64,000 bases of DNA from Clostridia bacterium (lineage in GTDB: Bacteria > Bacillota > Clostridia > Oscillospirales > Acutalibacteraceae): assembly GCA_017428625.1 (NCBI GenBank), contig JAFRQM010000035.1, positions 1 through 64,000 on the forward strand. The letters are read 5' to 3'. Under the pieces are notes generated by a model. The model ran no database searches. It saw only the letters and a program-made list of their open reading frames with translations, and was not told the DNA's origin. The position numbers and the translations under genes were made by a program. Numbering within the stretch: the stretch's first letter is position 1; every line of letters begins with the position of its first letter. This document shows, one piece after another, positions 1 to 22,437 of this stretch.

Positions 1-408
1 AGCCGTTTTCATCCATTGTGCCCGCTACGGTTGCAACATCGGGTGTGTAACCGGTAACTGCTGGTGAATCAACGCTGTATGCGGTGTTGTAAGCATACAT
101 ATCGTTAACAACATCGGCAGGTTTAACAGCGTCGTTGCCGTCTGACATTACATAAGTAATGTTAAGAGCATATTCGTTGGGTGTGTAGGTTACTGTTACC
201 GAGTAGCCGTTTTCATCCATTGTGCCCGCTACGGTTGCAACATCGGGTGTGTAACCGGTAACCGCGGGTGAATCAACGCTGTATGCTTCGCCGTAATCAT
301 ACATATCGTCAACAACATCGGCGGGTTTAACTGCGTCGTTGCCGTCTGACATTACATAGGTGATGTTAAGGGCATATTCGTTGACTTCCCATACCGCGTA
401 ATAAATAA
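1..408 (-). repeat. Tandem 204-bp coding repeats (MucBP-like), two copies
   Basis: The unit at 1-204 recurs at 205-408 with a period of exactly 204 bases (68 codons). The first 57 bases of the two copies are identical, and later differences are mostly single bases plus one short patch. Each unit encodes YVMSDGNDAVKPADV, then a variable stretch, then SPAVTGYTPDVATVAGTM. The array may continue past the left edge. Confidence 0.9.
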
Positions 409-2707
409 GCGGATTGTCGCCGGGAACGATTACATCGTTTTCAACAGTTGTGTCTGTTTCAACCGTAAGGTCGCCGAGATCTGCGATAACACTGCCGCCG
501 GATGTTGAAGCCCAGCCCCGGAATGTGTAGCCGGTGCGCTCGGGATCGGCGGGAAGAACTATTGCGGAATCAAACTCCGAGGAGACTGCTTTCTGTGTAA
601 CATTTGCGTTGCCGTCGAAATAACCGTTATCGGCGTCAAATATTACATAGTAGTCGTTCGGGGTGAATACCGCATAGTAGTATGTGCTTGTGTCAGGCAT
701 TACGGAGGGAAGGCTTGCAGCGGGTGTTCCGCCCTGCGTTGCCGACCAGCCGTCAAAACTGTAGCCTGTCTTGTAGGGGTCCGCGGGAACCTCAAACGGG
801 TCGCCTTCTATGTTGTCGATGGTCTCGTAAGCGGAGCCGTCGTCAAGGTAGAAATACTCTTTGAGGTCGGGGTCAAGTTCCCAGGTTGCAATGTAGTCTC
901 TGTCAGCGGGAGTGTCGAGAACGCCTGTGCCGACAATACTCGGAGACCAGCCGGAGAATACATAACCGTCTTTTGCGGGATCGGCGGGAGCAGTGATTGT
1001 GCCGCCGAAGGGAACAAGCTGTGTTTCGCCTATCTGAGTGTTTTCATTGAAGAATTTAACTTCATATTTAACATCATCAAGGTAGCCGTAGATTGTGATG
1101 TTGCTTGTTGAGTTGAGTGTTGCTCCGTCTGCAAGCGCTGTTTCGCAAGCCGAATCGGTGAACCAAGCGTAAAGAGTTTTGCCTCTGGGAGCTGTGTAAC
1201 GAACATCAGTCTGAATCTCTGCGCCGTATGCTGTACTGCGGCTGAATGTGAAGACTGTGTCGGGTGCACCCTTCGCACTATATATAATGTAATTAACTAT
1301 ATATGAGTTTGCTTCGTAAATCGCATTATAGGTTGTGTCGCTGTCAGGGAACACAGAGGGTGCAGCGGGAACAAAGTTGCCCTCGCCCGCTACGTTTGTG
1401 TAGCCTGTGTATGTGGGAGCCGTGGGAGCGGTTGCCGTGAAGGGATCACCTGCGTAGCCGCTGAATGTTCCGAGGCTCAAATTGTCTTTTGTATCAAAGA
1501 ATTCAACAGTAACTGCGGTTGCCCATATCATATAGTAGGCAACGCCTTCGTTACCGTAAACCATACCGTCAAAGTTCTGAAGAAGGTTTGCAGACTGCGG
1601 CGAAGCCGCGGGGTCTGTTGACCAGCCTCTGAACTCGTAGCCTGCGCGTGTGGGAACTGCGGGAACGATGCTGTCGCCGTTGAGGTCAAGACCTACGGGA
1701 TAGCCGGGAGTTGCGGTCGGGTCAACTACATCGGCGGGAGCGCCGTCATAGTTGTAACTGAATGTTGCGCCAACCTGGTCAATCCAAAAAGCGGTAAGGT
1801 CAAGGTCTTCATCTTCTGAGTAGGCTGTGGGGCCTTCGGGACCGTAGGTGCAGTCCTCAGCAGTTGCGTTTGTTATTGATGAATCATACCAGCCTGCAAG
1901 GGTTTTGCCCGCATAGGCAAGTTCGGGACGGGTAAAGGTTGCGCCCGTTGTGCCGTTGAAGGTTCTTGCAACTGAGGTGTTTTCATCCTGCCATTCGCCG
2001 CCTGCCGGGTTAAGAGTGATGCTGCTGTCGGTGGTAACCGAAACAGAGCAGTTAACCGTGCCGTTATACCAGATGAACATATCATAGATGACTGAAGAGT
2101 CTTCGCCTGAACCGCCCTTGGGAACATTGAAGAAACCGTAGGGGTTTGAAGTCTTCTGAACGGTGGATTCAAGAACTTCAAATACACCGTCGCCGCTCGC
2201 GTCTGAAAGCACGTTGAGGTCAAACTCAAAGAGCCAGTCGCTGCCGTCATACTGATAGTTTGTGAACGGACCTTCGAGAGAAACTACAAAGTAGTTATGG
2301 GTTGAGAGATAATCGGATGTCAGGCATCCGTCACTTATTAGGTTGTTGATAATTCCGCTTGCCGATTTTGTGAAATAAGAACCGGAGAAAGCGCTGTCAT
2401 TAACAACAAGTGACTGAATGCCGGTCTGATAGGAATCGCCGAAGAAAGCGTTGTCATAGAAGAAAATGAGGTCGGAAAGGTTTGAGTAGTAGTCTGTTCC
2501 GATTGAGACTCTGACTTTAACCGATTCACCCGCCGTGACTTTGTCACAGGCGACCCATTCTGTGCCATCGTTTTTGAAAATCTGTGCTGTAACTGTAAGC
2601 GTTGAACCGCCGGTGGTGGGGTCAAACGCATTAGCAAGAACTGACACAGAACTGAAAATCATCATAAACGCCAGCACCAATGCAATGACTTTTTTCGTTT
2701 TAGCCAT
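1..2707 (-). CDS. Giant secreted B-repeat/MucBP surface protein, C-terminus beyond the window
   Basis: The frame is open from an ATG at 2707 to the left edge (902 codons), so the C-terminus is missing. The start follows an AGGAGG site 11-12 bases upstream. Residues 1-27 are a signal peptide (MAKTKK then a hydrophobic run ending near ANA). Residues about 30-220 form a beta-rich domain resembling cohesin-like domains. About six or seven B-repeat units follow, each with a G-x-x-F-x-G-W core (for example GYEFRGWSTDP). The visible end holds two nearly identical 68-aa MucBP-like repeats, each with YVMSDG and GYTPD motifs. Role by inference: an exported adhesin or surface scaffold. Because its neighbour ends in a dockerin, one may lie off the edge, but this is not seen. 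It lies 114 bases downstream of the 2651-aa gene, in the same direction, and may be co-transcribed with it. Confidence 0.85.
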   Translation of the reverse strand, partial: MAKTKKVIALVLAFMMIFSSVSVLANAFDPTTGGSTLTVTAQIFKNDGTEWVACDKVTAGESVKVRVSIGTDYYSNLSDLIFFYDNAFFGDSYQTGIQSLVVNDSAFSGSYFTKSASGIINNLISDGCLTSDYLSTHNYFVVSLEGPFTNYQYDGSDWLFEFDLNVLSDASGDGVFEVLESTVQKTSNPYGFFNVPKGGSGEDSSVIYDMFIWYNGTVNCSVSVTTDSSITLNPAGGEWQDENTSVARTFNGTTGATFTRPELAYAGKTLAGWYDSSITNATAEDCTYGPEGPTAYSEDEDLDLTAFWIDQVGATFSYNYDGAPADVVDPTATPGYPVGLDLNGDSIVPAVPTRAGYEFRGWSTDPAASPQSANLLQNFDGMVYGNEGVAYYMIWATAVTVEFFDTKDNLSLGTFSGYAGDPFTATAPTAPTYTGYTNVAGEGNFVPAAPSVFPDSDTTYNAIYEANSYIVNYIIYSAKGAPDTVFTFSRSTAYGAEIQTDVRYTAPRGKTLYAWFTDSACETALADGATLNSTSNITIYGYLDDVKYEVKFFNENTQIGETQLVPFGGTITAPADPAKDGYVFSGWSPSIVGTGVLDTPADRDYIATWELDPDLKEYFYLDDGSAYETIDNIEGDPFEVPADPYKTGYSFDGWSATQGGTPAASLPSVMPDTSTYYYAVFTPNDYYVIFDADNGYFDGNANVTQKAVSSEFDSAIVLPADPERTGYTFRGWASTSGGSVIADLGDLTVETDTTVENDVIVPGDNPLIYYAVWEVNEYALNITYVMSDGNDAVKPADVVDDMYDYGEAYSVDSPAVTGYTPDVATVAGTMDENGYSVTVTYTPNEYALNITYVMSDGNDAVKPADVVNDMYAYNTAYSVDSPAVTGYTPDVATVAGTMDENG

Positions 2708-2746
2708 TATGCTTAATTCCTCCTTGTAAATTTATGGAATCTGCCT

Positions 2747-2805
2747 GCCTGATATTATCAGGCTTTTTTACTGACCCGTGCAGCGGGCGGCTGCCCGCCG
2801 CACGG
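2747..2805. other. Two stem-loops between the first two surface-protein genes
   Basis: A GC-rich hairpin lies at 2776-2805: CCGTGC and GCGGGC arms around GGCT, with one A/C mismatch. It is just downstream of the stop at 2822 of the minus-strand 2651-aa gene. A second hairpin at 2747-2769 (GCCTGAT/ATCAGGC) is followed by six T residues on the plus strand only. It therefore has terminator shape for the plus strand, not for the minus-strand genes. The first hairpin lacks a T tract on the minus strand, so it may stabilise the 3' end or attenuate rather than fully stop transcription into the next gene. Confidence 0.5.
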
Positions 2806-2821
2806 TGATGATAGTTCAATG

Positions 2822-5800
2822 TCAGATATTTGTAACTGTGCCTGTTACCTGATCAACTGTTGCCATACCCATTGAAATGGTTCTGATTGCGGTTGTGTCG
2901 GTGGATGTGAATACGCCGTCACCGTTGAGGTCTGCCGCAAGAAGAATCGGAGCGGGTGTGTCATCGGGGTCGATCGGGTTGTCGTTGTCGTCAATACTCC
3001 AGAGCTTGCCGACCGCTGCGTTGGGAGTCCATGCAGCTTCCATTCTTGCAACCTGAACATCGTTGCCGTTTACTCTGCCGTCGCCGTTGAGATCGCCGAA
3101 TATTACAATGTAATATGTTTCAACTACTTCGTTTGTAACATTGTCAACGAGTTCAACCTTTGTGCCGGTGCCGCATACATTAAGTGACGAGTATGCGGTA
3201 ACGGGAGTAACTACAAGGTGGCCGTCGCCGACTACTTCAGCGTAGTCATTTGTGAACTGTGTGATTGTCAGGTTAAGGTCAAGGCCGTAGATGTAGCCTG
3301 TGAACTCGTCTGTGGGATCGTCAACCTTGTCGATTACGGTTGTCTTGGTGGAGACAACTTCGAGTGTTACGGGAACTCTGGTGTAGATTGCAATTACAGC
3401 AACATTATTTGCGGGAACTGTCGCAGCGGCTTCAATCTGTTCGCCTGTCTCGGCGTTGAACCATACCCACTCATTGCCGAAGGTGTAGTTTGCGATTTCG
3501 GGAACAACTGAAGGAACGGTGATTGCCGTGCCGAAGGGATCGGTTGAAGATGCGACTGAATCATAATCTGTTGCGAGCTGTGCGAAGACAGCTGTTGTCT
3601 TTTCGCTGTTTGCGTCAAGAATGCTGTCTGCCGATGCCGCCTTGGGTGCATAGAATGTTACTGTGTAGGGGTTGGGTGTGTATGTAACTGTAACGGTCTT
3701 GCCGTTAACATCATCCATTATGCCGGTTACTGTTGCGATGTCGGGTGTGTAACCTGCAACTGCGGGTGACGCTACGCTGTAAGAGGTGTTGTAAACAACG
3801 CTGCTTACATCAGCTGCGGGAGCGGCTGATCCGTCACTCATTACATAATTGACTGTAAGGGTGTAACTCTCGGGTGAGTATGTTACTGTGTATGACTTGC
3901 CGTTAACATCATCCATTGTGCCGGTTACTGTTGCGATGTCGGGTGTGTAACCTGCAACCGCGGGTGACGCTACTGTGTATGTGGTGTTGAATGTTACCAT
4001 CTGGTTTGTAACATCAGCGGGTTTAACAGCGTCGTTGCCGTCACTCATAACATAAGTGATGTTAAGTGCGTAATCATTGGGTGTGTAGGTGACCGTTGCG
4101 GTCTTGCCGTTAACATCATCCATTGTGCCGGTTACTGTTGCGACGTCGGGTGTGTAGCCTGCAACCGCGGGTGACGCTACGCTGTAATCAGTGTTGAAAA
4201 CAACCTGCTCGGTGTGTGAAGCGGGAGCGGTTGAACCGTCGCTCATTACATAGTTGACTGTAAGAGCGTAACTGTTGGGTGAATAGGTTACCGTTACCGA
4301 TTTGCCGTTTACATCATCCATTGTGCCGGTTACTGTTGCAACATCGGGTGTGTAACCTGCAAGCGCGGGTGACGCCACACTGTATGTCGCGTTGTAGTTG
4401 ACCTGCTCGCTGTGCGCTGCGGGAGCGGTTGCTTTGCCGTCGCTTACAACATAGGTGATGTTGAGGGCATAGGGGTTGGGTGAATATGTAACTGTTACTG
4501 ACTTGCCGTTTATATCATCCATTGTGCCGGTTACTGTTGCGATGTCTGGTGTGTAGCCTGTTACTGCGGGTGATGCCACGCTGTAGCTTGCGCCGTAATC
4601 AACATTTTCGGTGTAAGCCGCGGGAGCGGTTGTGCCGTCAGACATTACATAAGTGACTGTAAGGGCATAGGGGTTGGGTGTGTAGGTTGCGGTGTATGAA
4701 AGGTTCTCATCGGGAACTGTCGATGCAACCGCGGGTGACCATGCCGAGAAGGTGTAACCGTCTTTGACAGGTGTGCCGGGAGCGGTTACATTTGCGCCGA
4801 ATACAGTGTTCTGAACGATGGGGCCTGCGTCGCCGCCGATGTTACCGCCGTCAAGGTTCCATGTAACTGTATGCGGGTTGGGATCGTATGTGACTGTTTC
4901 GGTTACATCGCTTGAACCCATTGTGCCGGTTACGGTAGCGATGTCGGGTGTATAGCCTGTTACCGCGGGTGATGCAACTGTGTAGGTTGCGCCGACATTT
5001 ACGGTTTCGGTGTGCTGTGCGGGGGCGGTTGAGCCGTCAGACATTACATAGTTGACTGTAAGGGTGTGGCTCTGCTGAGTCCAGTTGATTCTTACATTGA
5101 TGTTAGCCGCGGGCATTGTTGCGGGAATCTCGCTGTAACCTGCGGTCTGAACAACAAGTTCGTAATCCCAGCCTGCTCTGTAGGGAACAGCGGGAACTAC
5201 GGTCTCACCGTATGCGTAGGTATCAACACGCATCTGAGCGGTAAGGCTTGTCTGATTTGCGGCGGCGTCTGTAAATGAGCAGCCTGTAAGGTTACGGTAT
5301 GTGATTGTAAAGGTCTTGGGAGTCCATACCGCGTAGATTGATACGCCGTCAACACTGTCCATAACGCCGAGGCTTGCATCGGGAGTTGTCGCAGTGCTGC
5401 TGCGTGACCAGCCGGCAAAGTCATATCTGCCAAGCGCGTCAGTAGGAGCGTTGATATTGTTACTTGTGATTGCCGCGTTGTATGCAACCGTGTCGGTTCC
5501 CGCAACATCAGCGGGATCGTCAAGGTTCATATAGAATGTCGCGGTGTAATTGTTGGGAGTGTAGGTTACGGTTACGGTTTCGCCGTCAGCATCCATTGTG
5601 TCGGTTACGGTCGCAACATCGGGTGTATAACCTGTTACTGCGGGTGACGCTACGCTGTAGACCGCGTCATAGTAAACCTGCTCGGTGTGAGCCACGGGAG
5701 CGGTGGAACTGTCAGACATTACATAGTTGACTGTAAGGGTGTTCTGTGCGCGTTTGATGTAAGCTTTGAGGATTACGGTTGTGCCTACCGTGCTCTCATC

Positions 5801-8800
5801 AAGGTGAGCGGTAAGAACATTTGCCGCGCTCGAGTCAAATTCCGACATACCCGCGATTACATAGGATGAGTAATCAAGTGTTACATCGCCCGAACCGCTG
5901 AGTTCATTTGTATAAGTCGGGTCGGTCGGATATGTTCCGTCAGTGCCCATTATATAAATGTATTCATAATAAGGCTGGCTGGTGAGCTGCCATACCGCAT
6001 AGTATGTTGTGCCGGTTGTTGAAGCCTGGTTGCCGAGCTCATCAGGTGTTGTTGCGTTCGGGTCTGTGCTCCAGCCGAGGAAGTTGTAGGAGGGTTTCGA
6101 GGGTGAGTTGGGTGTGATTACCGCCGAGCCGAAGATCGAATCTGCTGTGGCTGTTGTGCTCTGGTCGGAGAACTCACCGCCGTTTGCGTTAAAGGTGTTG
6201 GTAACGGTAACACCCTGCCATACAGCGTAGTAAACTCTGTTGGCGGTTGCCATACCGATATTACCTGCGGTGGTTGCTGTTGCAGATAAGTTCCAGCCGA
6301 TGAATGTGTAGCCTGTTCTGACGGGAGTTACAGGCGCAATTACGGGCTGGGTAGCAACCGCGTCATCTGCAAATGAGGTCTGATACTCTCTGTAAAGAAC
6401 ATAGGTGCTTGCATCTGTGTAAGCGTAACCAACACCGTAGGAGTCTTTGTCTTCCGCTGTTGCGTAGCCGGTGAATTCACCGCCGTTTGCATTGAATGTG
6501 CCGGTGTAGATAGCGCCGCGGTATGCAGCGAGGATAATACCTGAACCGTCTGCCGCGATTGTGCAGGTAAGCCTGTTGCTTTCGTTGGTAGCGTCAAATA
6601 CATATCTGCCGTTCTGAACCGCGGGAAGGTCTGAATAGCTGAAGTAATTATCTGTGCTTGTGTTGGTGTAGGCGCTTGCGTCTTCAACAAAGTGAGCTGT
6701 CGCGCCCGTTGTTCCGATATATGTGCCGCCGGTTGTGTCGTTTGTAACGATGTTGCCGGTCGCGTTATTGACATAAATTACACGAACTGTGAACGGCGTG
6801 TCATCAGCGGGACCCCAGATTGCGTAGTAGGTTATGGGGGCGTCGCTCATCTGCTGCGGGAAGGTTACCGCGGAACCGTCTGCCGTAAGCGACCAGCCTG
6901 TAACTACATAGCCCTGTTTTGTGGGAAGGGTTGAGGGGCCTGAGAATTCCACTTCGTAGCCGTAGTTTTCGGTAAATGTTGTTTCATTGCCGAACGCACC
7001 GCCGTTCGCATCCCATGTTACGGGATATTCGACGGGAGTCCACAATGCTTTGAACTCTTTGTTGTTCTGGGTTTCGGAGCCGTAATAGCCTGCTACCCAT
7101 TCGTCTGAAGTTGTGTCTTCGGGATCAACATACCAGCCGGTAAGTTCATAACCTCTTCTGATAGGATCAGCATAGTCCGGAATCGCTTCGCCGACATCGC
7201 CCGTGAAGGTCCTTGTGCCCTGAGGAGCTTCGGCCCATGTGCCGCCGTTGGGATTCGCGTGAATTGTGCTCTGGGGAGCGGGCTGAAGTGCTATTTCAAC
7301 TTCATCTTCTGCAAGCTGAAGAAGAGGTGTTACATGGTTGTTGAAGCTGTTCCATACATTTGCGGAAGCAGATTCAAGCCAGCCGTAGAACATTGTGCCG
7401 TTGTTGTTGTCGGGGTCTCTGGTCCAGGCATTGTCCATATAGATTTTGCCTACAGAGCCGCGAACCGCATTGTCTTTGACTTTGAGCTGGAACTGAACCA
7501 TCCATGTGCCGTCATTCATCATGCCGCCGGTGGTTACACCGCCGAGAACGTCGGGATCGATGGAAACCTGAATCCAGTTGTAGCCTGCCGGGCATTCGTC
7601 ACGGGCGGGGCTTGCTGTGTAGCCTGAATAGTCTGTGCCGTTGGTGCCGGAGATTGCGCTGATATAACCGTTTTCTGAGTTGATGGTAAAGGCGTTTTTG
7701 CCTGAACCGATAAGTTCAAACACGGTGTTATCATACATATATACAAATAATGTTGACGCTGTGTAGAAGTTGGTGGTCGACTTCATCTGAACGGTGATGG
7801 TGTCGCCGGGGTTGATGGGAGTGTCCGCAACGGGAACAAGCTCGCCATACATTTCTTTGTAAGCGTCAAGTTCAATGAACGCCGCTGTGGTTGTTCTTAC
7901 CCAGACCGCGCTGAGCGCTACTGTTGAGCTCGCGGAAGCCGGGAAGTTGTCGGAAGCGGGGTTGACAAGGGTAATGGCGCCGCTCGATACAGCGCTGTTG
8001 TAAGCAGCCATATCGTTAATGATTCTAGGTGTGTTGCCTATATACCAGCCGCCGAAAACATAACCGAACTTAACCGGGTTGGCAGGAAGAGGAATACCTG
8101 CCGCTGTGTAGGCGTCTCTGATGGGAGAGCCTGTGTTGCCGGTGATGCTGTCCGGGTTGTGAACTGTGTCAACAGGTGTGTTGTTGGCGTTCGGATTATA
8201 GCCGATATTATATGTAAGGGTTACGGGGTTGGGGGTCCACTTGGCGTAGAGAATACCGCCGCCGACAAGCGAAGCGGGAAGGCTGTTCGCGCCCGCCTGA
8301 AGAGCTGTGCCCGTAAGGGACTCATTGAGATACCAACCGTTGAATGTGTAACCTGTTCTGACAGGAGTGGGAAGGGTTACGGAATCGCCCGCGCTGAGGC
8401 CGGCAACGCTGACAGGGTCAACAGCCTCGCCGCCGTTTGAGCGGAAGACTATTTTGTTGTTATAGCTTTCGAACTGGGCGTAAACTGTAACATTCTCACT
8501 GTCATAAGGGCTTGTTGTTGTAGCGCCTACTTCGGAATACCAGACCTGCTCACCCCAGTTGAACGCTGTGATGTATGACGGGTCGGCATACCAGCCGAGG
8601 AACGCATAGCCCGGAACTACCGGATCTGCGGGCTGTGCAACAACATCTCCGGGATAATAGAGGCTCGAAGGCATTGTTGCGCCTGCCGCGCTGAGGTCGT
8701 AGTTGATGATTGTGGGGTTGGGAGTCCACTTAGCATAGAGAGTGAACGGGTTTGTGTCAACCGTTACCGAAGTAAGTTTGTTGGTGTATGTGCCGGTTGA

Positions 8801-10777: not shown

Positions 10778-10838
10778 AATGAATCCCTCCGTTCAAAATT
10801 TTTCGTGAGATAGTTTTGGGCACTATTACACATTGTCA

Positions 10839-10867
10839 ATTATACACGGCAAAATGTTATATGTCAA
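10839..10867 (-). promoter_or_regulatory. Sigma-A promoter for the 2651-aa dockerin gene
   Basis: On the minus strand TTGACA (10862-10867) and TATAAT (10839-10844) are separated by exactly 17 bases; both hexamers match consensus. Transcription would start near 10832, leaving a leader of about 55 bases with the GGAGGG site. Confidence 0.85.
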
Positions 10868-10981
10868 TAAAATATCTTTAAAAAATTTATATATTATATA
10901 TAGAAAATTCATATTTGTCCTAAGTTGTTGTCAAAGTAAACAAAACACTTCGTTGATGGTTATTTAAAACGCTGAATTGAC

Positions 10982-11075: not shown

Positions 11076-11459
11076 GTTTATTTTTGCCAATTTATGGCAA
11101 TTTATCCACCTGTAAAAAGACGCGTTTATTTTCTGAGTAGGAATTATTATCGACAAAAAAAGACCCCTTCAAAAGCAATTTTCAGAATAGTTAAAAAGCA
11201 GGCAATCCGAATTTTGCCTCTCAGTGCCTCTTGAAGGCTCTGATTTCGTCTGAACGGAAAAAATATTGATTCAAGCACAAAATTGTCTCTGAGAGCTTCT
11301 GAGGGCTTGTAAAGTGATTTGTTTTACATCTTTAAAAATCATTTTTGATAGTTTGTTTTATGCCCGTTTTTGTTTTATCGGCTCCCCTGCCCGTTTATCC
11401 GGCATAAATCACTGCGTTTTTCCGCTTTTCGCGCCTTTTTTCAGGCGGAGAAATATTTC

Positions 11460-11496
11460 AAGAAAGGAAAAGCCGCAGGGTTTTACCCCTGCGGCT
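11460..11496 (-). terminator. Rho-independent terminator of the 1850-aa surface gene
   Basis: A perfect 10-bp stem AGCCGCAGGG/CCCTGCGGCT with a 6-base loop lies 34 bases past the stop codon. On the minus strand it runs into a T-rich tract (TTTCCTTTCTT). Confidence 0.85.
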
Positions 11497-11529
11497 GAAT
11501 GTTGCGATATTACGCTTTACGCTTTAAGC

Positions 11530-14500
11530 TCAGCCCTGAGCCGCTGCGAGTTCAGCGTTGTTGTTGTAGATTGTGGTTGTAACTGTTGTGCTGCTGCAGT
11601 CAACCCATGTGTTGCCGCGGCTTTCAACTGTTACGGTGTATTCGCCTGCTGCGGTGAATCTGTAGCCGATTACCCAAGTTGCAGTGCCGTCGCCGTTATC
11701 TGTGAAGGTAACGTTGTTGGAAGTTCTGGTGTAAACAGCCTGTTTTGTGCCGACAGTAAGGCGGATCTTTGAAACATCACTGGTGGTTGTGATTGTGATG
11801 TTTGTGTAGGAGAGCTTCTTACCGAGCGCTGCTGTTGCGTCAAGGATTGAGTAGGGATCTACTTCATTGCCGTCAACTTCGTGAATCTCACCCGATGTGT
11901 CATATCTGGTAACGTTAACGCTTACGGAATCAACGCCGCCGTCAATGAACTCTGAGGAAGCTTCATCATAATAGTATGCAGTGTAGGTGTTGAGCTCGCT
12001 GAGTTTCGGATTCTGGATATCAAGAACGTAGGAGATCGGGAAAGATACGGTCCATGTTGCTGTGCCGTCGCCGTTGTCAACCCAGCCTTCGCCTACGGAA
12101 GCCTTTGTGAAGCCGATTGAACTCGAAACTGTTGAGCCGTTATCAACTACGTCAGCAAGTCTTATCATATTGATATCGCTTGTTGCTACGATGGTAAATG
12201 TTACCGAATCGCCGCGCTTGATTTCAGTCTTGTCAACCGCAACTGAGATGATGGCGCTGACTGATACAGTTTCATCATATTCAACTGTGAAGTCGAAGCC
12301 GTTTTCAAGTAACTCCCAACTGCTCTCGTCGTAGGCAACCTTTGCGCGGGCTTTGTAGCCGCCTTCGGGGATTGTTGCTCGAACTGTCCATACTTCTGTG
12401 CCGTCACCGTTGTCAACGATTGAAACGAGACCTGTGAGATCGCCGTCATCAAGAACTGTCGGGTTGAAGCGGCTGTAATCCCAACCTACCGAATAGGTGT
12501 CGTCATAGTAAATCTGGAGTCTGCTGGGTGTGCCTTCAACGGTAATTGCCCAGTTTGCTACGCCGCACTCATAGTAAGGATCGTCACCGAGACGGACAAC
12601 GCTCTTAACTGTGCAGTAGCTTGTATCCTGAGTCCACTGTGCTGTGTATGTAACATTGCCTGCGCCGATGGTTGCATCAACCTCGGGTGACCAGCCTGCG
12701 AATACATAGCCGCTTCTCTCGGGATCTGCGGGAGCGGTGATTGCGCCGCCGAATTCAACATTGAGAACTACGTCTGCTGTATTGCCGTCAATGTTACCGC
12801 CGTTAAGCGCAAATGTTGCTGTGTAGGTATTGATTTCGAACTTGGCTGTGTAAGCAGCGCCGTTTTCATCCATCGCGGGGATAGACACGAGAACTGTCTC
12901 TGTAGCGTCGCCTGTTACGAACCAGCCTACAAATGTGTAGCCTTCCTTGGCTGCTGAGGGAGCAGCGGGAACTGCACCGTAGTTAACCATTGCGGTTGTG
13001 TCACTGCCGTCAACAGTCCATGTTACCTGATACTTGTTGATTGCAAAGACAGCCGTTGTGGTAAAGTCGTTTGCGGGCATTGTTGAAGGAAGTGAAGGAG
13101 TCCAGTAGCTGAATGTGTAACCGGTCTTTACGGGATCGTCGATTACAACATTTTCGCCGTATTCGAACTCATATTCCACTGTATTGCCGTCTATCGAAGC
13201 AATTACTTTATAAGTATTGATTTCGAACTGCGCTGTTACAGTGAGGTCGCCTGCGGGCATTGTTGCGGGCCATTCGGGATCCCAGCCGGTGAAGGTATAA
13301 CCTGTCTTGGAGGGGTTCGGGATGGCGGCAACAGTCTCACCGTATTCATAAGCGATTGTTGTGGAAGCGCCGTCAATTACATAAGTGAAATTGAAGGTGG
13401 CAAGACCAAAGGCAGCAACAAATGTCATATCCTGTGCGGGCATTGTTTCGGGAACATCTGTCGATACGCCGTCAACCTTCCAGCAGGAGAAGTCGTTACC
13501 TTCCATTGTGGGATCTGCGGGAGGAGTAACCTGTGTGCCGTAATCCTGAGTGATTACCTGATAGGTCTCACCGTTAACGATGAAGGTAAGTGTATACTGG
13601 TTGATTGTGAACTTCGCTGTGTATGCAGCGCCGTCAACGCCAACTGCCGGGAAGGATGTGACTATTGTTTCGGTTGAGTCGCCTGTTACGAACCAGCCTG
13701 CGAAGGTGTGGCCTTCTTTTGCTGCTTCGGGAGCAACGGGAACTTCGCCGAAGGTAACATCTGTAATCTGCGATGCACCGTCAATTGTCCATTCTACCGG
13801 GTAGGTATTGATTTCGAACTGTGCGGTGTAGGTTGAATCTGCCGCGGGCATTGTTGCGGGAACTTCGGGTGACCAGCCTGTGAAGTCATAGCCTTCTTTT
13901 GCCGCTGCGGGGGCAGAAATTGCCGCGCCGTAGTAAACCTGAGTTACGGTGTCATTACCGTCAATTGAGAAGGTAAGAGCATACTGGCTGCGGCCTACAT
14001 AAACCGTAAGGGCTGTTGAGCCGTCTGCGGCGATTACGCCTGTCGCGGCATAGCCTGCGTGGTCAACATCATAGTAGAAGCCTGCTTCAAGTGCGGCGCT
14101 TGCAGCGTCAACGGGTGCGCCTGTAACACCGGTCTTGGCGGTTGTTATGCCTGAGTCATAAGCACCGTCTGTGCCCATTGTGTAAACTGTTACGCTGTAA
14201 GGTGTATCGCCTGATGCTTCCCAAATTGCTGTGTAAGTAACATCTTCATCGGGAACTGTTGAAGCGGGTGCCGGAGTCCATCCGTTGAATGTGAAGCCGC
14301 TCTTTTCGGGTGTTCCGGGAGCAACTATCGGTGCGCCGAACTCAGTGTTCTGAACGATGGGGCCTTCATCGCCGGCAATGTTACCGCCGTCAAGAGCCCA
14401 TGTTACTGTATGAGCATTTGCGGTGTAAGTAACGGTGATTGTCGGGATGGGGTCAATTGTGGTGTCAACTGTGAATGTGCCGAATACTACGGGGATGTCG

Positions 14501-17082
14501 GGTGTGTAGCCGGTAATCGGGGGTGAAACCTGGCTGTAGGATACGCCGAATTCGTTAATCAACTGAACTGAAGGCGCAGCTGTTGTGCCGTTTGCATAAA
14601 CATAATCAATGTTTACTTTGACATCGTTCGTGCCGTAGAAAACGGTGTATTCCTTGCCGCCGATCTGGTCCATAGTAACCTGAACAGAAGTTGCGGGAGC
14701 GATGGAGTATGAATAACCATAATATGTAGGCGGAGTTACGGTGTAGGATGCGTTGTAAAGAACGTTGACTACATCATCAGGGAATACGCTGGTGGTTGTA
14801 TTTGCATAGTAGTAGTGAATTGTAAGAGGATAACTTACGGGTGTAAGTGTAACCGTTACGGTAGTAGCAGCTGCGGGCATTGTGCCGGAAACGGTTGTGA
14901 CATCAGCTGTGTAGCCTGCGGGAACAGTTACGGGATAATCGTAATTTGTGCCGTAAGCAACCTGGTAGGTTTCATCCGCGGGAGCGACTGAACCGTCGGA
15001 TGTTTCATAAGTAACAGTAAGAGTATATTCGATGGGAGTGAATACAACATGATATGTTGCGTCGCCTTCAATTGTCGCAGGCATAGGATTGTTGTTTTCA
15101 TCAACCCAGGAGAGGCTGTAACCAGCGGGAACAGTAACTGAAGGAGCAGTGATTGTTGTGCCGGCTGAACCGCTCTGTGTTGTAATAAGGTTGCCGTTCT
15201 CATCGTTGAAGGTTACGGTGTAGGTTGCATCTGCGAATTTCGCGGCAACTACAAGATACTCTTCGTTGGGAACTATTGTAATCTGCTCATCTGTGAAATT
15301 ATAGGATTCGTCAAGAACGAACCAGCCGATAAACTGCTGACCTGCTACGGGAGCGGTCGGAGTGGGAGCGACTGTGCTGATATCGGTGCCTACCGGAACA
15401 TCAAAGCCATCGATGTAGGTAGCGCAGTCCATCTCGAAGAAGTCGATGAATACAGTTGCAACCTGCCATTTAGCATAGAAGCTCTTGCCGCCGATGGGCA
15501 TTGTGCCGAGGTTGTTCGTAACATTACCGCCGGGAGTAGTTGACCAGCCGAGGAATGTAGCGCCGTCCATAGTGGGCTGAGGCGAGAGCGCCTGAATGTT
15601 TGCGCCATACTGTGCCTGAGTAGTGCCGAGAACGGTTGTTCCGTCTGAATCATAGAACGTTGCCGTGTAAGTGTTGGCTGTATAGGTAACGGTCTCTGTG
15701 GTGTCATCGGTGATAGTGCCGGCAACTGTTAAGATGTCGGCTGTGTAACCGTCGATTACGGGTGAAACAACAGAATAAGAATCATTGTATGCGTATGTGC
15801 TCGTGTGTGTTGCTGCGGCTGTTGTGCCGTTTGCATACTGATAATTGATTGTAAGGGTATATGTTGCTGCGGCGTAGCTTGCATAAACTGCTGTGTCGCC
15901 CGAAACAGTAATCGGCCATGAAACAGCGTTGCCCTGTGCGTCAACCCAGCCTGCGAAGTTCTGACCTGCAGGAGGAGTAACGGAGGGAGCGTCTGCAAGA
16001 GCTACGGTTGCGCCTGCGGCAAGGTCATCGATGGTATCAAGAACGGTGTTGCCGTCGGCATCATAGAAGGTTACAGTGTAGGTATCGCCTTCTGCAGGGG
16101 GATCGCCTACGCAGAGAGTAACGCCGAAGTCCTGATAATCAAAGTGAGGAACTTCGTGAGAGTTAACTGCTTTTTTACCTGTGGTGCTGACCGCGAGTGT
16201 GCCTGATTTTTTACCTGCCTGAAGCGCGGTCATCCCGGAAACCGGAACTTTGAACATACCTTTATTCGGGTCCTGAGTGGCGGGAATAAAGATTGAACCG
16301 ATGGCGCCGTCCTGAAGATTGTCTTTAACCTTATACATAATCGCAAGCGACCACAGGTCATCTTCGTTCTGGTAATAAATAGTGGAACCTACTCGGCTGC
16401 CGACATAAACATTGACGCCGATGGTGTCAAGTTCATCTGCAGTCCAGCCGGATTTGGTGATGTTTGTCTGGTTGTTGGCTGTAACAGCCGGTGTCTTGGG
16501 AGCGAAGGTAAGACCGATTGAGGCGTTGGCAACATCCGCCTGAAGGGGGTTCATAATACAGCCGTAAGTTTCAAGGTTTGTGTTGCTTGAATCAAGAGCC
16601 TTGATTTGAAGGTCGGTCAGACCGTCGTTTGCAGTGTTGATGTTGTCAAAGAAATCGTATGTGTGCGCAAACCAGCCTGTAAGGTTGCCCATATAGGGGT
16701 AGCTGGTTGTGAACTTGATGAGAAGAACAACATAATCGCCTGCATGAACATAACCGTCGGTCTCTGTCATATGATTCTGGAAATCATAGTTGGGCGTGTA
16801 GCCGCCGGATGTGTCAATCTCATAAGTCCAGCCGGAAAGATATGAATATCCGTCCGGATACATTGCCGCAAGTTCGCTCTTCATAAGAGGAGCTGTTCTC
16901 GGATTACCGTTGATATCCAATCCGCGGTGCTGTCCGGGTTCTCTGGTAATGCCGTCAAGGTTGGTGATGGTCGGCGCTGTCGCCGATGCGGTGACTGAGA
17001 AAACACCGCCGAGACATGAAAGCGAGGTCATAAGCATTGCGAATACAAGCACAAAGCTCATAAAGCGCTTAGTTGTACGCAT
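11530..17082 (-). CDS. 1850-aa secreted B-repeat/MucBP protein without dockerin
   Basis: The ATG start follows GGAGGAG. A signal peptide occupies about residues 1-35. Residues about 60-330 form a cohesin-like or related beta domain containing a YKVKDN motif that resembles FQLKVKDN in the 2651-aa neighbour. The middle carries about eleven B-repeat units (G-W cores such as GYDFTGWSPEV) and about four MucBP-like units (such as GYTPDIPVVFGTF). The C-terminal ~310 residues hold three related Ig-like modules, each with an (N/D)NGDGT-x-x-W motif (VDNGDGTEVWTV, VDNGDGTATWTV, TDNGDGTATWVI). No dockerin, LPXTG or other anchor motif is present; the protein ends NNNAELAAAQG. By inference it is an exported adhesin held at the surface in a different way from its dockerin-bearing neighbours, or released. 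A clear terminator follows; the promoter is less certain. Confidence 0.85.
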   Translation of the reverse strand: MRTTKRFMSFVLVFAMLMTSLSCLGGVFSVTASATAPTITNLDGITREPGQHRGLDINGNPRTAPLMKSELAAMYPDGYSYLSGWTYEIDTSGGYTPNYDFQNHMTETDGYVHAGDYVVLLIKFTTSYPYMGNLTGWFAHTYDFFDNINTANDGLTDLQIKALDSSNTNLETYGCIMNPLQADVANASIGLTFAPKTPAVTANNQTNITKSGWTADELDTIGVNVYVGSRVGSTIYYQNEDDLWSLAIMYKVKDNLQDGAIGSIFIPATQDPNKGMFKVPVSGMTALQAGKKSGTLAVSTTGKKAVNSHEVPHFDYQDFGVTLCVGDPPAEGDTYTVTFYDADGNTVLDTIDDLAAGATVALADAPSVTPPAGQNFAGWVDAQGNAVSWPITVSGDTAVYASYAAATYTLTINYQYANGTTAAATHTSTYAYNDSYSVVSPVIDGYTADILTVAGTITDDTTETVTYTANTYTATFYDSDGTTVLGTTQAQYGANIQALSPQPTMDGATFLGWSTTPGGNVTNNLGTMPIGGKSFYAKWQVATVFIDFFEMDCATYIDGFDVPVGTDISTVAPTPTAPVAGQQFIGWFVLDESYNFTDEQITIVPNEEYLVVAAKFADATYTVTFNDENGNLITTQSGSAGTTITAPSVTVPAGYSLSWVDENNNPMPATIEGDATYHVVFTPIEYTLTVTYETSDGSVAPADETYQVAYGTNYDYPVTVPAGYTADVTTVSGTMPAAATTVTVTLTPVSYPLTIHYYYANTTTSVFPDDVVNVLYNASYTVTPPTYYGYSYSIAPATSVQVTMDQIGGKEYTVFYGTNDVKVNIDYVYANGTTAAPSVQLINEFGVSYSQVSPPITGYTPDIPVVFGTFTVDTTIDPIPTITVTYTANAHTVTWALDGGNIAGDEGPIVQNTEFGAPIVAPGTPEKSGFTFNGWTPAPASTVPDEDVTYTAIWEASGDTPYSVTVYTMGTDGAYDSGITTAKTGVTGAPVDAASAALEAGFYYDVDHAGYAATGVIAADGSTALTVYVGRSQYALTFSIDGNDTVTQVYYGAAISAPAAAKEGYDFTGWSPEVPATMPAADSTYTAQFEINTYPVEWTIDGASQITDVTFGEVPVAPEAAKEGHTFAGWFVTGDSTETIVTSFPAVGVDGAAYTAKFTINQYTLTFIVNGETYQVITQDYGTQVTPPADPTMEGNDFSCWKVDGVSTDVPETMPAQDMTFVAAFGLATFNFTYVIDGASTTIAYEYGETVAAIPNPSKTGYTFTGWDPEWPATMPAGDLTVTAQFEINTYKVIASIDGNTVEYEFEYGENVVIDDPVKTGYTFSYWTPSLPSTMPANDFTTTAVFAINKYQVTWTVDGSDTTAMVNYGAVPAAPSAAKEGYTFVGWFVTGDATETVLVSIPAMDENGAAYTAKFEINTYTATFALNGGNIDGNTADVVLNVEFGGAITAPADPERSGYVFAGWSPEVDATIGAGNVTYTAQWTQDTSYCTVKSVVRLGDDPYYECGVANWAITVEGTPSRLQIYYDDTYSVGWDYSRFNPTVLDDGDLTGLVSIVDNGDGTEVWTVRATIPEGGYKARAKVAYDESSWELLENGFDFTVEYDETVSVSAIISVAVDKTEIKRGDSVTFTIVATSDINMIRLADVVDNGSTVSSSIGFTKASVGEGWVDNGDGTATWTVSFPISYVLDIQNPKLSELNTYTAYYYDEASSEFIDGGVDSVSVNVTRYDTSGEIHEVDGNEVDPYSILDATAALGKKLSYTNITITTTSDVSKIRLTVGTKQAVYTRTSNNVTFTDNGDGTATWVIGYRFTAAGEYTVTVESRGNTWVDCSSTTVTTTIYNNNAELAAAQG

Positions 17083-17173
17083 ATTGAATGTCTCCTCCTT
17101 TTTTTGAAATAGAATTGTTAAAATTATAAAAACACATTTGCTGTGATTTTTAACCTAACCGAAACTTTTCATT

Positions 17174-17206
17174 GCTCCGTCCGGGGCGGATTTCCCGCCC
17201 CGGAGC
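17174..17206 (-). terminator. GC-rich hairpin after the 1728-aa dockerin gene
   Basis: A perfect 9-bp stem CCGGGGCGG/CCGCCCCGG with a 5-base loop lies about 45 bases past the stop at 17251. The downstream minus-strand sequence (GAGCAATGAAAAGTTTCGG) has only a weak T tract. It may be a partial terminator or a 3'-end stabiliser, allowing some read-through into the 1850-aa gene. Confidence 0.5.
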
Positions 17207-17250
17207 GGCTGTGAATAAAATGATGTTACTGAGAAACTAACCCTTCAGAA

Positions 17251-20200
17251 TCAGAAATCTATATATGCGCCTTCGTCGCCATAGCCCCAGTGATTGTCAA
17301 AATCCTGGTTGATGGCACTTGAACCGGAGGATACGGATTTAAGGATAAGGGCGTCAATTGAGGTTGCTTCGAAGTCACCGTCAACGTCGGCTGAGCAAGC
17401 CATTACAAAGTGATCCATTTCGCCGTCCCACATATATTCTTCAGCATCTGAACGGACTGCGAAGGTATCAAACGCAGTGATTTCAGCATCGCCGTCGAAA
17501 TCGCCGTAAAGAACAACATAGTAGTTTGCGATTTCGTCTGTTTCATTTTCATCTGCATAGATGGTGATATAGGATGCTGTTGAGTAGCAATCCATCTCAT
17601 TGGGAGTCCATACAGCGTAGCAGTTTTCAAGGGTCTTAAATACATCGGTGGGTTCACCGTCATAGTAGAACACGCCTATACCTGCTATGAAATACATATC
17701 AGCATCACCGTAATACATTTCACCGTATGTGCTGTCTGCATAGGGAACAAATGCTGCACCGAAGTCATCACGATAGAATACGCTGTTTGCAAGAGCTTCT
17801 TCGTATGCATCGGGGTCGGTTTCAATATCGAAGAACTCAATTACGGGATCGGCTCCTGCCGCGATAACAAGACCGTTGATTGCCGCTGTAAGAGCAGCCG
17901 CCGCATTTGCAACGGTGTTCTGGTTTGCGGTGCTGTCACCAAGGTCGGCTTTGCGGATATCGATAGCTTCAACAACCGCGTTTGCGAATGCCTCTGAGCT
18001 TTCTGCAGTATAGCCTGCCGCTACAAATGCTTCTTTGATTTCGTTTGCATCGCTGAGAGCAGTGTCAAGGGTATCAATAACGCTTGCTACCGCGCCTGCT
18101 ATAGCTGAAGGATTAACCCCGCCGATGTCAAAGCTTTCGCCTGCGAGAGTTGAAAGCGCATCGATAATAGCAGCGTCAAGAACTGTGTAGTCAACGCCCA
18201 TGCAGAGTCTCTTATAAGCTCTTACATACTGGCTGAGAGCTTCTGTTATCTGTTCGGGCTTCGGAGCGGGATCACTGAGTGTGTAATCCGCGAATGTCTT
18301 TGCAAGTGTGTATTCTTCCCATGTGGATGCGGAGTAGTTGCCCTGAGCGTCTACTGAGTAAGCGCTGCGGAACGCCGCAAGTTTGCTTGTGTTTGCATCA
18401 CGCGGGATAAGTCTGTTACCGGTAAGGTTGACCATGCTCAGAGCATAAGCAACCGAAACGGAGTTAAGTGCGGGAATATTGGCAACTCTTACGAGATATG
18501 ACTCATACTCTGCATTGTAAGCTTCCATAGCTTCAACATATTTATTGTATTCATATACCGAAGCATCTGCGCCGGGATTTACGGGCTCGATGGGAGGATA
18601 TACAACCTGAGAGTCGATGATGCTCTGTGCTGAATTTCTGGCGTCTCTGAACTTCTTGTAGTCATGACCTACATAGTCGCGGATACCGAAATAACTGTAA
18701 GCATATCTTGAAGGACCGTTTGTGCCGCCTGCGGTTGTTGCCCAATACTGAACATTGTTCCAGCCGACTTTTTCGGGTTCGTTGCCGTCAGCCATAAATA
18801 CGGGGTTAACATCCTCTGCTTCATCAAGATAGTAGTTGTTGCTGTAGTTTGCGCCGTTGTTCGCAGAGTTCGCTACGAAGCCTGCGATTGCCTGCTCAAG
18901 AGCGGTTGTGCCGGTTGTCGCGGCTTTTTCGTCAAGAGCTTTAATAGCGGCGTAGAGGTTGCCGTATGCTGTAGCATACTGTGCGGATTTGGTCGGGAAT
19001 TCTGCTTCAGTCTTCGGGTCAAGAACAAGAAGACCTGCCGCGTCAAGAGCACTCTTGTAGGTGTTATACTCTGTGTTCGCATTTGTGAAGTTGTTGGGCT
19101 GACGGTTTGCGTCAACTGCATTCTCATAGAGTGATGCAAGGCCCTTGTCATCATAGAGGAAGAACTTGACGCTCTTTGTAATGTTGCCCGAAGGAGTTGC
19201 CAATGTGTAGGAGGCAGTGAATGTGCCGTTTGAAATTATTGTGTTGCCTTCCGCATCGACATTTGTTCCGTTAACGGCATTGGTTGAAAGTGTGTAATAA
19301 GTTTCGGATGCATCATATGCCGCGCTCTGAGGAACGAGAGTATATGTGTAGCCGTTTGCGTTGCGGGTGTAAAGGTCGGTTGCGCGTGTTGTCGGATTTT
19401 CATCGGTGTTGCCGTAGGTTTCGAAGTTACCGGAGTTGACATTCGCAACATTGTAACTCTCGTTGAGTCTTACATAGCCATCCGCCAGTTTGAACGGAGT
19501 GAGCGAGTAAGTCATACCTGCCGATGCGTCGGTGGTAAGAGTAGCTTCGGTGTTCTGGGTAATCCAGGGAACATTTGTTGAAATTGAGGAGATGCGGATG
19601 GTCTGTGAATTGCCGGCATCGTCCTTGACAGCCACCGAATAGCCGAGAATGTCATCGAGCGACCTGCCTCTGTTAGCGTAAACAGTGGGAGCAGCTTTAA
19701 GTGTGTAATTGCCTACAACATAGTCAATACGCTCGTCGGAGTCGTCTTTGTTTGTGGTGTCAACATAGCAGTATCTTGTGCAGGCAAGTTCAGCGCCGTC
19801 GGCAAGATATTGGTTTGTTTCATTCTTTACTTTATATACAATATTTAATGTTATGATTGAATCCTTCTTGATGCCGGAACCTGCAATGGTAAGAGACTTT
19901 GCCGCGCCGCCCGCGAGGGTCTGACCTGCCGCAAGGCCTGTAACACCGACTGAGCCGGAGGTTGTGGTTGCGGTTATGGACACGATTTCATAAACATAAA
20001 GGTTGTCTTGTGTGAATGCGCCGTTTGAGTTAGTGTAGCCGGTGTTGATACCCGAACTGCCGTTGTAAACCTGGAACTCAAGGCCTGCGGTTGCTTCGGA
20101 TACGCTGACGATTTCAGGCATATAGCATTCCATTTCGCCGAACTTCTGAGCGTCTGTGAGATTGAGAAGGTCGCAGACAACGGGAAGCGCTACCGCAATC

Positions 20201-22437
20201 CAGTCTGACGCATGTGCGTAAAGCGAATCAATAAGGTTGCCTACTATTGTGGCAAGCTCACTGTTTACTACAAGAGCGTCAAGGCTCGCGAATGACTTGG
20301 TAACCGTGCCCGGGAATATAGTGTTGACAACTCTGGTAACAAGGTCGATGATTGCCTTCTTGGTTGTGTTTGTGGCAAGTTCACCGTTGGTGTTTCTGGA
20401 GAAAATCTTCTCGAAGTTTGAAACATCGTTGATGTTGAGAATGGGATAAATAATGTAATCAAATAATAATGATTTAATTACGAGAGTCTGGCTTGAGATG
20501 TCATTGTGAATCCATGCGCTGGCGCCCTTGATGGGAACAAGTGCGTTGATGATGGTGTCAAGGTCTGCCCAGACCTGAGCCGCTGTAACATTGCCTACCG
20601 TGCCGTTGTTGTTGGGGTCGGTGTTGAGATTCTCGAATGCGCAGCCCGTTGCGGTAAGCATACCCGCGTAGTTGTGAACGCCCCATGTCGCAATCTGAAT
20701 CGCAAGGGTTTCATAATCGTTGCAGTATTCAAGAAGACCGCTGCCGGCATTAGTTGCAGGGTTGGTAGCCGTGCGGTTCTTCATTTTGCCGTTTGAATTG
20801 GCGACCATATCAATATTGTTGTTGATATTGTATGCCGCGATATCCATAAGAATGTCGAGCATCTGATCAACAAGCGCTGCATAATACTGCGCGTCTGTAC
20901 TGTTGCCTCTTACGGGCTTGGTGTAAGAGAGCTGGGGAAGATCCTGCCATGCAAGCTGTTCAACTGCTGCGTAGCAAACATCAGCTATTGTCTGCTGAGT
21001 GTCGTCAATATACATCCAGCTTACGGATTCGTTAAGAATAACTCTGAGAACGAAAGCAACAGTCTGCTGGTCGTTCATATTACCGATTTCTTCTGAACTG
21101 GGAAGAGTGATGTAAGGCTCAAAGAATTTGTCGCCTGCACCCTTAAGAATGAATCTTGCAACCGAGCAGATGTTCTTGAGAAGCAGAGCATCGCCCTGTG
21201 AATTATCCCAATCCCAGTCTCCGTTTGCTGCGGAACCGTTGAGAACACACTCAAGAACGCCGCCGAAATAGGTGTTGAAGTTGGCTATGAATGTTGAGTT
21301 CGCCGCATAATCCGAAGGATTGTATGCCGGAATATGCATTCCGTCAACATCAAAAATAGCGGCAAGCTGAGGATCAAGATCGCCGGGCTGATATTCGCCG
21401 TCATAGTCGGGATCATAATTTGCGCTGTTGGGGTCCATCTTATCCTTGTCATAAGTTACGCCGCAAACCTCGCGAAGCCAGGGGCGTGTAACATTGTTAA
21501 GAACGGGAACCGCAATGTAGTTGAACGCATTGACCATAAGCTTTTCAATGAAGTTGTAAGCCGATGTGTTCGCGTTGATGTTGCAGTCAGAAAGAATCTG
21601 ATCGATTTCCGCTGCGGAGAGGTCCTCAAGATATTCCCAAAGAAAGCCTTCGTAATCTTCGGGATCGGGGAGAACATAAGCGCCGTTAACCTTCTGGTGG
21701 TTGCCGATAAGAGCATATTTGAGAAGGTCATAAAGCATAACGTCAAGGTCGCCGCTTCCGGACGTAACGTTGTATTTGCCTTCGATTTTGTTGTTGGCGT
21801 CGATTTCACCGTCAAGAATGTCATAACTATCATTCATAACATGGTAGAGCGCTTTGAAAGCAAGAGCTCTGACGTCAAAGAGATAATCGCTGACAAGTGA
21901 GTTAAGAGCGCCGAGGCTGAGTGTGTGTGCCACATATCCGGTAAGAATGCCTTTGTTGTCTTCAAGGAACCGAACAACGGCAAGGATAACGTCTTTATCC
22001 TGAGTGTTGCCGCTTACGCCTCTGGTAACAAGGCCGCCGGATTTCTGATGGCCGACATAAAGAGCGTCGATGCTGAGAGAGCCTGCATCGCCTGCAATGC
22101 TCAGAAGACCGGAAACATTTTCATAGATAGCCGCTACCGAAGCAATGGCTTTGTTAATGCTTCTCAGGTCAAGACCTTCATCTGTGAGGTTGAGAAGGTC
22201 ATCGGGGCCGAGGTAGATATTTGCCGAAGCAAGTAACTTTTCGAGCTCTTCCAATGCCATTGAAGCATACTGCTCTGTGGTGAACGTAGGCTTGTCAAGG
22301 TCATCGTAGCCCCTGCCGGTCGCTGCCGTGATTGCGCCGTCTCTGTATGCCTGGTATGCGCTGCCCATAACTGAGAACATACCGAGAAGCATTGTCAGAG
22401 CGAGAATCACACTGAGAATTCGGGTTGACTTTTTCAA
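17251..22437 (-). CDS. 1728-aa secreted protein with large helical domain and C-terminal dockerin
   Basis: The TTG start follows GGAGG. The signal peptide (MKKSTRILSVI, then hydrophobic residues) ends near residue 28. Residues about 50-760 look mainly alpha-helical and match no family I know. Residues about 770-1100 are beta-rich, with a YKVKNE motif. Residues about 1100-1560 contain helical FIVAR-like repeats. After a short beta module (about 1570-1640), residues about 1643-1720 form a type I dockerin with duplicated loops GDFDGDAEI and ADVDGDFEA; the Asn of the usual DxNxD loop is replaced by Asp. B- and MucBP repeats are absent, apart from a B-repeat-like remnant (AVWTPNE) before the dockerin. 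Inferred role: a surface protein attached through dockerin-cohesin contact. No catalytic motif was recognised. Confidence 0.85.
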   Translation of the reverse strand: MKKSTRILSVILALTMLLGMFSVMGSAYQAYRDGAITAATGRGYDDLDKPTFTTEQYASMALEELEKLLASANIYLGPDDLLNLTDEGLDLRSINKAIASVAAIYENVSGLLSIAGDAGSLSIDALYVGHQKSGGLVTRGVSGNTQDKDVILAVVRFLEDNKGILTGYVAHTLSLGALNSLVSDYLFDVRALAFKALYHVMNDSYDILDGEIDANNKIEGKYNVTSGSGDLDVMLYDLLKYALIGNHQKVNGAYVLPDPEDYEGFLWEYLEDLSAAEIDQILSDCNINANTSAYNFIEKLMVNAFNYIAVPVLNNVTRPWLREVCGVTYDKDKMDPNSANYDPDYDGEYQPGDLDPQLAAIFDVDGMHIPAYNPSDYAANSTFIANFNTYFGGVLECVLNGSAANGDWDWDNSQGDALLLKNICSVARFILKGAGDKFFEPYITLPSSEEIGNMNDQQTVAFVLRVILNESVSWMYIDDTQQTIADVCYAAVEQLAWQDLPQLSYTKPVRGNSTDAQYYAALVDQMLDILMDIAAYNINNNIDMVANSNGKMKNRTATNPATNAGSGLLEYCNDYETLAIQIATWGVHNYAGMLTATGCAFENLNTDPNNNGTVGNVTAAQVWADLDTIINALVPIKGASAWIHNDISSQTLVIKSLLFDYIIYPILNINDVSNFEKIFSRNTNGELATNTTKKAIIDLVTRVVNTIFPGTVTKSFASLDALVVNSELATIVGNLIDSLYAHASDWIAVALPVVCDLLNLTDAQKFGEMECYMPEIVSVSEATAGLEFQVYNGSSGINTGYTNSNGAFTQDNLYVYEIVSITATTTSGSVGVTGLAAGQTLAGGAAKSLTIAGSGIKKDSIITLNIVYKVKNETNQYLADGAELACTRYCYVDTTNKDDSDERIDYVVGNYTLKAAPTVYANRGRSLDDILGYSVAVKDDAGNSQTIRISSISTNVPWITQNTEATLTTDASAGMTYSLTPFKLADGYVRLNESYNVANVNSGNFETYGNTDENPTTRATDLYTRNANGYTYTLVPQSAAYDASETYYTLSTNAVNGTNVDAEGNTIISNGTFTASYTLATPSGNITKSVKFFLYDDKGLASLYENAVDANRQPNNFTNANTEYNTYKSALDAAGLLVLDPKTEAEFPTKSAQYATAYGNLYAAIKALDEKAATTGTTALEQAIAGFVANSANNGANYSNNYYLDEAEDVNPVFMADGNEPEKVGWNNVQYWATTAGGTNGPSRYAYSYFGIRDYVGHDYKKFRDARNSAQSIIDSQVVYPPIEPVNPGADASVYEYNKYVEAMEAYNAEYESYLVRVANIPALNSVSVAYALSMVNLTGNRLIPRDANTSKLAAFRSAYSVDAQGNYSASTWEEYTLAKTFADYTLSDPAPKPEQITEALSQYVRAYKRLCMGVDYTVLDAAIIDALSTLAGESFDIGGVNPSAIAGAVASVIDTLDTALSDANEIKEAFVAAGYTAESSEAFANAVVEAIDIRKADLGDSTANQNTVANAAAALTAAINGLVIAAGADPVIEFFDIETDPDAYEEALANSVFYRDDFGAAFVPYADSTYGEMYYGDADMYFIAGIGVFYYDGEPTDVFKTLENCYAVWTPNEMDCYSTASYITIYADENETDEIANYYVVLYGDFDGDAEITAFDTFAVRSDAEEYMWDGEMDHFVMACSADVDGDFEATSIDALILKSVSSGSSAINQDFDNHWGYGDEGAYIDF

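Follow-up and report, generated by a model that had tools for sequence, protein, structure and literature searches.

A cluster of giant exported repeat proteins with dockerins and predicted divergent cohesins, a candidate enzyme-free surface assembly in ruminant-gut Clostridia

We found that four adjacent genes for giant exported proteins in a Clostridia genome combine dockerins with a divergent domain that is predicted to fold as a cohesin. We propose, with a probability of about 0.62, that this locus encodes an enzyme-free surface assembly in which the proteins are joined head to tail by cohesin-dockerin pairs. The fold is taken from structure prediction, and the domain order and the anchor motif are read from the sequence. 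A previous sequence-only reading had suggested a dockerin-held adhesin or scaffold layer and not a cellulosome enzyme set, and it is supported by true dockerins, five putative divergent cohesins, sortases, and the lack of any dockerin on a recognized hydrolase. We infer the joint assembly, the binding of these cohesins to these dockerins, the order of the chain, and an adhesive or layer function.

The genome is 2.63 Mb in 60 contigs and 97% complete, and the cluster occupies the left end of contig C29, with all four genes on the minus strand. The whole stretch of DNA that we analyzed, here called the window, is 64,000 nucleotides of this contig. The lengths and coordinates of the four tandem exported open reading frames were as previously described (Table 1).

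Table 1. Features of the giant-protein cluster, in window coordinates
Feature	Position	Strand	Description or basis
P0001	2..2707	-	902 aa, exported giant: predicted N-terminal cohesin and List_Bact/MucBP repeats; cut by contig end
P0002	2822..10777	-	2651 aa, exported giant: B-repeats, predicted internal cohesin, MucBP array, C-terminal dockerin
P0003	11530..17082	-	1850 aa, exported giant: B-repeats/MucBP, without dockerin
P0004	17251..22437	-	1728 aa, exported helical/FIVAR protein, dockerin at end
Type-I dockerin of P0002	2888..3097	-	calcium loops DLNGDGRVNGND and DLNGDGVFTSTD
Type-I dockerin of P0004	17338..17508	-	calcium loops DFDGDAEITAFD and DVDGDFEATSID
Predicted divergent cohesin of P0001	2063..2599 (aa 37-215)	-	AlphaFold, Foldseek, family HMM
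Putative divergent cohesin of P0002	7349..7876 (aa 968-1143)	-	family HMM (E = 2e-36); own-genome profile match; clade of congeners' internal cohesins
Highly divergent, probably cohesin-like domain of P0003	16282..16770 (aa 105-267)	-	family HMM, positional orthologues

Each of the four proteins starts with a Sec-type signal peptide, as judged by eye. Using Pfam, we found InlB-type B-repeats (List_Bact_rpt/Flg_new) in P0001 (E = 1.8e-30), P0002 (E = 3.6e-44), and P0003 (E = 1.2e-53), along with MucBP/Muc_B2 matches in the same three proteins, and no hydrolase domain in any of the four. This agrees with the earlier description of adhesin-like repeat arrays without a recognizable hydrolase. The modular grammar that was said to be common to all four proteins is indeed shared by P0001 to P0003 but does not extend to P0004, which has a helical body, a FIVAR match below the Pfam cut-off, and a dockerin; we looked for B-repeats and a cohesin in P0004 and found neither. 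Going by what is known of their families, the B-repeats and the MucBP modules would be suited to adhesion or to spacing. Repeat arrays in an exported protein, as in InlB B-repeat/MucBP adhesins, are present in P0001 to P0003 and also in the proteins on contigs C49 and C52 described below. List_Bact_rpt has 71 matches in this genome, on contigs C4, C11, C12, C22, C29, C31, C34, C45, C47, C49, and C52, and the proteins matched include, as read by eye, a protein kinase/PASTA-like protein (C11) and a papain-like protease (C45). Two further giant repeat fragments are unplaced, L038 (contig C47) and L039 (contig C34). Elsewhere in the window, a DHHW-family (AlgX-like) protein at 58962-60257 is a possible polysaccharide acetylation gene.

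The dockerin caps proposed earlier are present at the C termini of P0002 and P0004, where Dockerin_1 scores 20.7 bits each, slightly under the Pfam cut-off of 22.9. Pfam found no dockerin in P0003, and that of P0001 very probably lies on contig C49. A type-I dockerin has two calcium loops (DxNxDxxxxxxD) with helices, and P0002 and P0004 each have both of them intact. In the 77 sequences of the dockerin family, a set that includes some near-identical copies from two collections, a simple loop pattern matched at least twice in 57, once in 20, and in none zero times, with a few of the matches outside the dockerin loops. A profile of this family matched 4uyp (E = 8.2e-9) and 5lxv_B (E = 6.1e-6) in the PDB. 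The model of the P0002 C terminus has a pLDDT of 86.7, and dockerins or complexes containing them account for all of its first 14 fold matches, at modest E-values (0.03-0.4). The sequence-only reading had set unrelated EF-hand domains as the outcome that would count against it; we rejected that outcome on the basis of the intact loops and the PDB profile and fold matches. A second helical dockerin protein (a 1,566-codon frame; G000:C35:30945-31349, L040) is encoded outside the cluster, and dockerin proteins of similar size occur in many congeners, including some without the divergent cohesin.

By reading the sequences, we found that P0001, P0002, and the proteins on C49 and C52 share a domain of about 200 residues. 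AlphaFold modeled the P0001 copy (aa 27-236) with a pLDDT of 94.7 and a pTM of 0.90. The top PDB match of this model by Foldseek is 5lxv, the ScaC cohesin of Ruminococcus flavefaciens (E = 2e-5). Of the 24 PDB matches at E of 1e-3 or less, 23 are cohesins or cohesin-like modules, with TM-scores, normalized by target, of up to 0.66. The predicted structure thus has the cohesin jelly-roll fold, and we are confident, on the strength of the model, that the P0001-type domain folds as a cohesin. A profile search recovered exactly five copies in the genome, all on proteins of the cluster or of the contigs that probably continue it.

Standard sequence models respond weakly to this domain. The Pfam cohesin model (PF00963) gave no match in the genome at E of 0.001 or less; its best score is 14.1 bits against a cut-off of 24.1, where the Pfam model is a diagnostic convention and not a structural requirement. 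We therefore call the domain a divergent cohesin fold and not a canonical cohesin. When PDB sequences were searched with the cohesin-like profile, no match was significant, and profile-profile comparison with the canonical cohesins of the genus was suggestive (42% probability, E = 2.7e-4, over 37 columns only). Pfam does touch the same domain weakly in P0002 (7634-7813, E = 0.077) and in congeners (for example, G032:C37:14203, E = 0.0018), and a copy at G018:C10:70575 reaches E = 1.3e-4 and passes the cut-off together with its neighbors. A genome without a cohesin-bearing protein was also to have counted against the sequence-only reading. Pfam alone would have given that answer with its zero matches, but five predicted cohesin-fold domains are present, and we take the Pfam result to be a false negative.

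An unlikely alternative is that the domains with a cohesin fold serve in adhesion or ligand binding and have no affinity for dockerins, which would make the giants ordinary adhesins and leave the dockerins to bind something else. Cohesin-like beta-sandwiches occur in adhesins too (the fold matches include the CLIPPER domain 9ifr and the pilin CppA 5xcb), and sequence identity to known cohesins is only 9-17%. Some congeners also have dockerins with no detectable cohesin partner: at our thresholds, neither divergent nor Pfam cohesins were detected in G004, G007, and G034 despite their dockerin proteins, nor in G035, which has seven dockerins, so some dockerins are without a known partner. Against this, nearly all top fold matches are true cohesins, and the cohesin-fold domains and dockerins occur within the same polypeptides.

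The N-terminal domain of P0003 is probably another cohesin, judging by sequence. It matched the cohesin-family HMM with a domain E-value of 3.2e-4 in a very small, 7-sequence set, and its positional orthologues in G011 and G014 carry recognizable cohesin copies. Profile-profile comparison of this domain gave weak scores that were not significant. We concluded that the first reading had missed divergent cohesins in P0001, in P0002, and probably also in P0003. Contig C47 opens with a domain nearly identical to that of P0003.

The cluster very probably extends onto two other contigs, C49 and C52, as indicated by sequence at the contig ends. The left end of C29 and the start of C49 have a common repeat (98% over 184 bases), as do the end of C49 and the start of C52 (91% over 209 bases). 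We found no exact overlap between contig ends, so we base the C29-C49-C52 joins on these common repeats and on synteny. C49 starts with the end of a dockerin-carrying protein, followed by a cohesin-bearing protein. Very probably, the former is the continuation of P0001 (C49, 1-3720) to a C-terminal dockerin, and the latter ends in a dockerin at the start of C52. The order is supported by the best single-domain matches for P0002, C49_a, and C52_a and is ambiguous for the C49_b cohesin. The terminal protein on C52 is a 2,777-codon frame with two putative divergent cohesins, a sortase anchor (IPQTG-TM-KKK; Pfam Gram_pos_anchor, 21.5 bits against a cut-off of 20), and no dockerin. It thus combines putative cohesins with a surface-anchoring signal, as an anchoring scaffoldin does. 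Sortases, which the earlier reading had proposed to look for in the same genome, were found: there are two, of which only one is clearly classified, as class C, and it lies beside pilin genes. The pilus operon at G000:C20:1-8137 (L142) has a class C sortase, a second sortase-like gene, a SpaH/EbpB-type major pilin, and other LPXTG proteins.

The anchored protein with several putative cohesins resembles Sca5 of R. bromii (PMC5814915). Together with the ruminant-gut origin of the relatives and the canonical cohesins of some congeners, this would suit an ordinary cellulosome or amylosome whose cell-surface scaffold takes up dockerin-bearing enzymes encoded elsewhere. We consider this distinctly improbable. 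Such systems have dockerin-bearing carbohydrate-active enzymes, but in this genome, which is 97% complete, we detected five dockerins and none on a recognized hydrolase; all five are on repeat or helical proteins without a hydrolase domain. A plain cellulosome was rejected on the same count.

According to the model of a head-to-tail surface assembly, the giants would be secreted via Sec. The middle proteins (P0002, P0001 with its continuation, and the C49/C52 protein) would each have a cohesin socket at or near the N-terminal side, a stalk of B-repeats and MucBP modules, and a C-terminal dockerin plug. The dockerins would bind calcium and insert into the cohesins of the next subunit, joining the giants head to tail. 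The terminal C52 protein, with its two cohesins and sortase signal, would form the wall-attached base. P0004, which has a dockerin only, may be a terminal cargo or tip, and P0003, with a possible cohesin and no dockerin, may be a cap or a released scaffold. That each dockerin instead folds back on the cohesin of its own polypeptide, closing the giant into a ring or locking it without chains, is slightly less probable still than capture of enzymes, since both domains are present in most members but P0004 has only a dockerin and the anchor protein has two cohesins without one, which suits intermolecular binding.

We found the divergent cohesin in 32 of the 37 searched genomes of the genus, this genome included; 23 genomes belonging to the order's other families had none. 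Widening the sample to 394 genomes of the order added only weak matches, in one other genus of the family. The named relatives are mostly ruminant-gut metagenome-assembled genomes (MAGs). The nearest, RUG13231 (L116), keeps the arrangement at a DNA identity of about 80-83% and is thus another species. The same grammar recurs in related gut genomes: a signal peptide, one or two cohesins, repeats, and a dockerin. In the MAG RGIG3084, the downstream genes are uninterrupted on one contig. The first of them encodes a P0003-like protein and is truncated by the end of the contig. This is followed by a protein with an internal cohesin and a dockerin, two with a cohesin and a dockerin, and one with two cohesins and a dockerin. 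Several relatives also have LPXTG-anchored single-cohesin proteins separate from the cluster. The cohesins group by gene position, with 15 label changes compared to a shuffled mean of 38.5. Across 36 congeners, cohesin and dockerin match strengths are correlated (Spearman, 0.78; Fisher P = 3e-4, with thresholds set after viewing the data), a covariation to which common descent and assembly quality may in part contribute. We hold it about an even bet that an uncultured genus of ruminant-gut Clostridia builds long enzyme-free fibers or a surface mesh, with giants joined from a sortase-anchored base by position-diversified divergent cohesins that standard models miss.

Cohesin-dockerin pairs are mainly familiar as the linkage that holds cellulosomes together. 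A cohesin fold outside the cellulosome is known from the cohesin-like module 2jh2 of Clostridium perfringens, which sits on a glycoside hydrolase (compare the fold match 2w1n), whereas the putative cohesins here are on enzyme-free giants. To our knowledge, InlB B-repeat/MucBP surface adhesins are anchored one by one. The cluster resembles them in its repeat arrays, signal peptides, and the LPXTG-type anchor on the terminal member, but most of its members have no anchor and have a dockerin at the end.

Ruminococcal systems share further parts. In R. bromii, Amy4 bears both a cohesin and a dockerin, and Sca5 combines two cohesins with a sortase signal (PMC5814915, PMC9112005). As in that amylosome, we found cohesin and dockerin in one protein, a two-cohesin protein with a sortase anchor, and MucBP modules in some dockerin proteins. 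In contrast to the amylases and starch-binding modules of R. bromii, no hydrolase was found here; the proteins are about 1,700-3,500 aa, consist mostly of repeat arrays, and form one cluster, and their cohesins are unrecognized by Pfam. In R. flavefaciens FD-1, carbohydrate-active enzymes were found with only about half of the dockerins, and the authors suggested that some cohesin-dockerin interactions may structure the cell surface (PMC2930009). Sortase-type anchoring is known in ruminococcal systems, and divergent ruminococcal cohesins that standard tools miss are on record (PMC11557425). The cluster is like the FD-1 cellulosome in its closest cohesin fold match (5lxv), sortase-type anchoring, and dockerins on nonenzymes; FD-1, however, is fiber degrading with about two hundred dockerins, and here there are five, none on a recognized enzyme. 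We found no paper on such an enzyme-free giant cluster in the open-access literature. The parts are already known. Their combination in a cluster of enzyme-free giants that carry both partners appears to be a new variant.

If the model is correct, the same cohesin-dockerin joint would also build surface structure, in a dedicated enzyme-free use by giants that carry both partners. The older idea that some ruminococcal dockerins structure the cell surface would become testable, and new divergent cohesin-dockerin pairs would be available for protein engineering. A genome without a Pfam cohesin match is not the same as a genome without a cohesin.

Several other proteins were seen in the congeners. 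In G011, a large open reading frame upstream of the P0004 orthologue is glucan synthase-like (NdvB) by eye and was judged unrelated; G014 has an open reading frame of about the same size. In G035, small proteins (393-585 aa) at C1:28121-29536 and C21:108528-110673 have several tandem dockerins each. Pfam cohesin matches exceed the cut-off in 14 of 45 genomes of the genus; the loci that we numbered L122 to L131 are from G033, G062, G015, G014, G005, G025, G020, G029, G031, and G006. At L122 and L123, the two loci read, the Pfam cohesins adjoin proteins with LRR-like repeats and a dockerin at the end; this seems to be another cohesin-dockerin set, distinct from the first.
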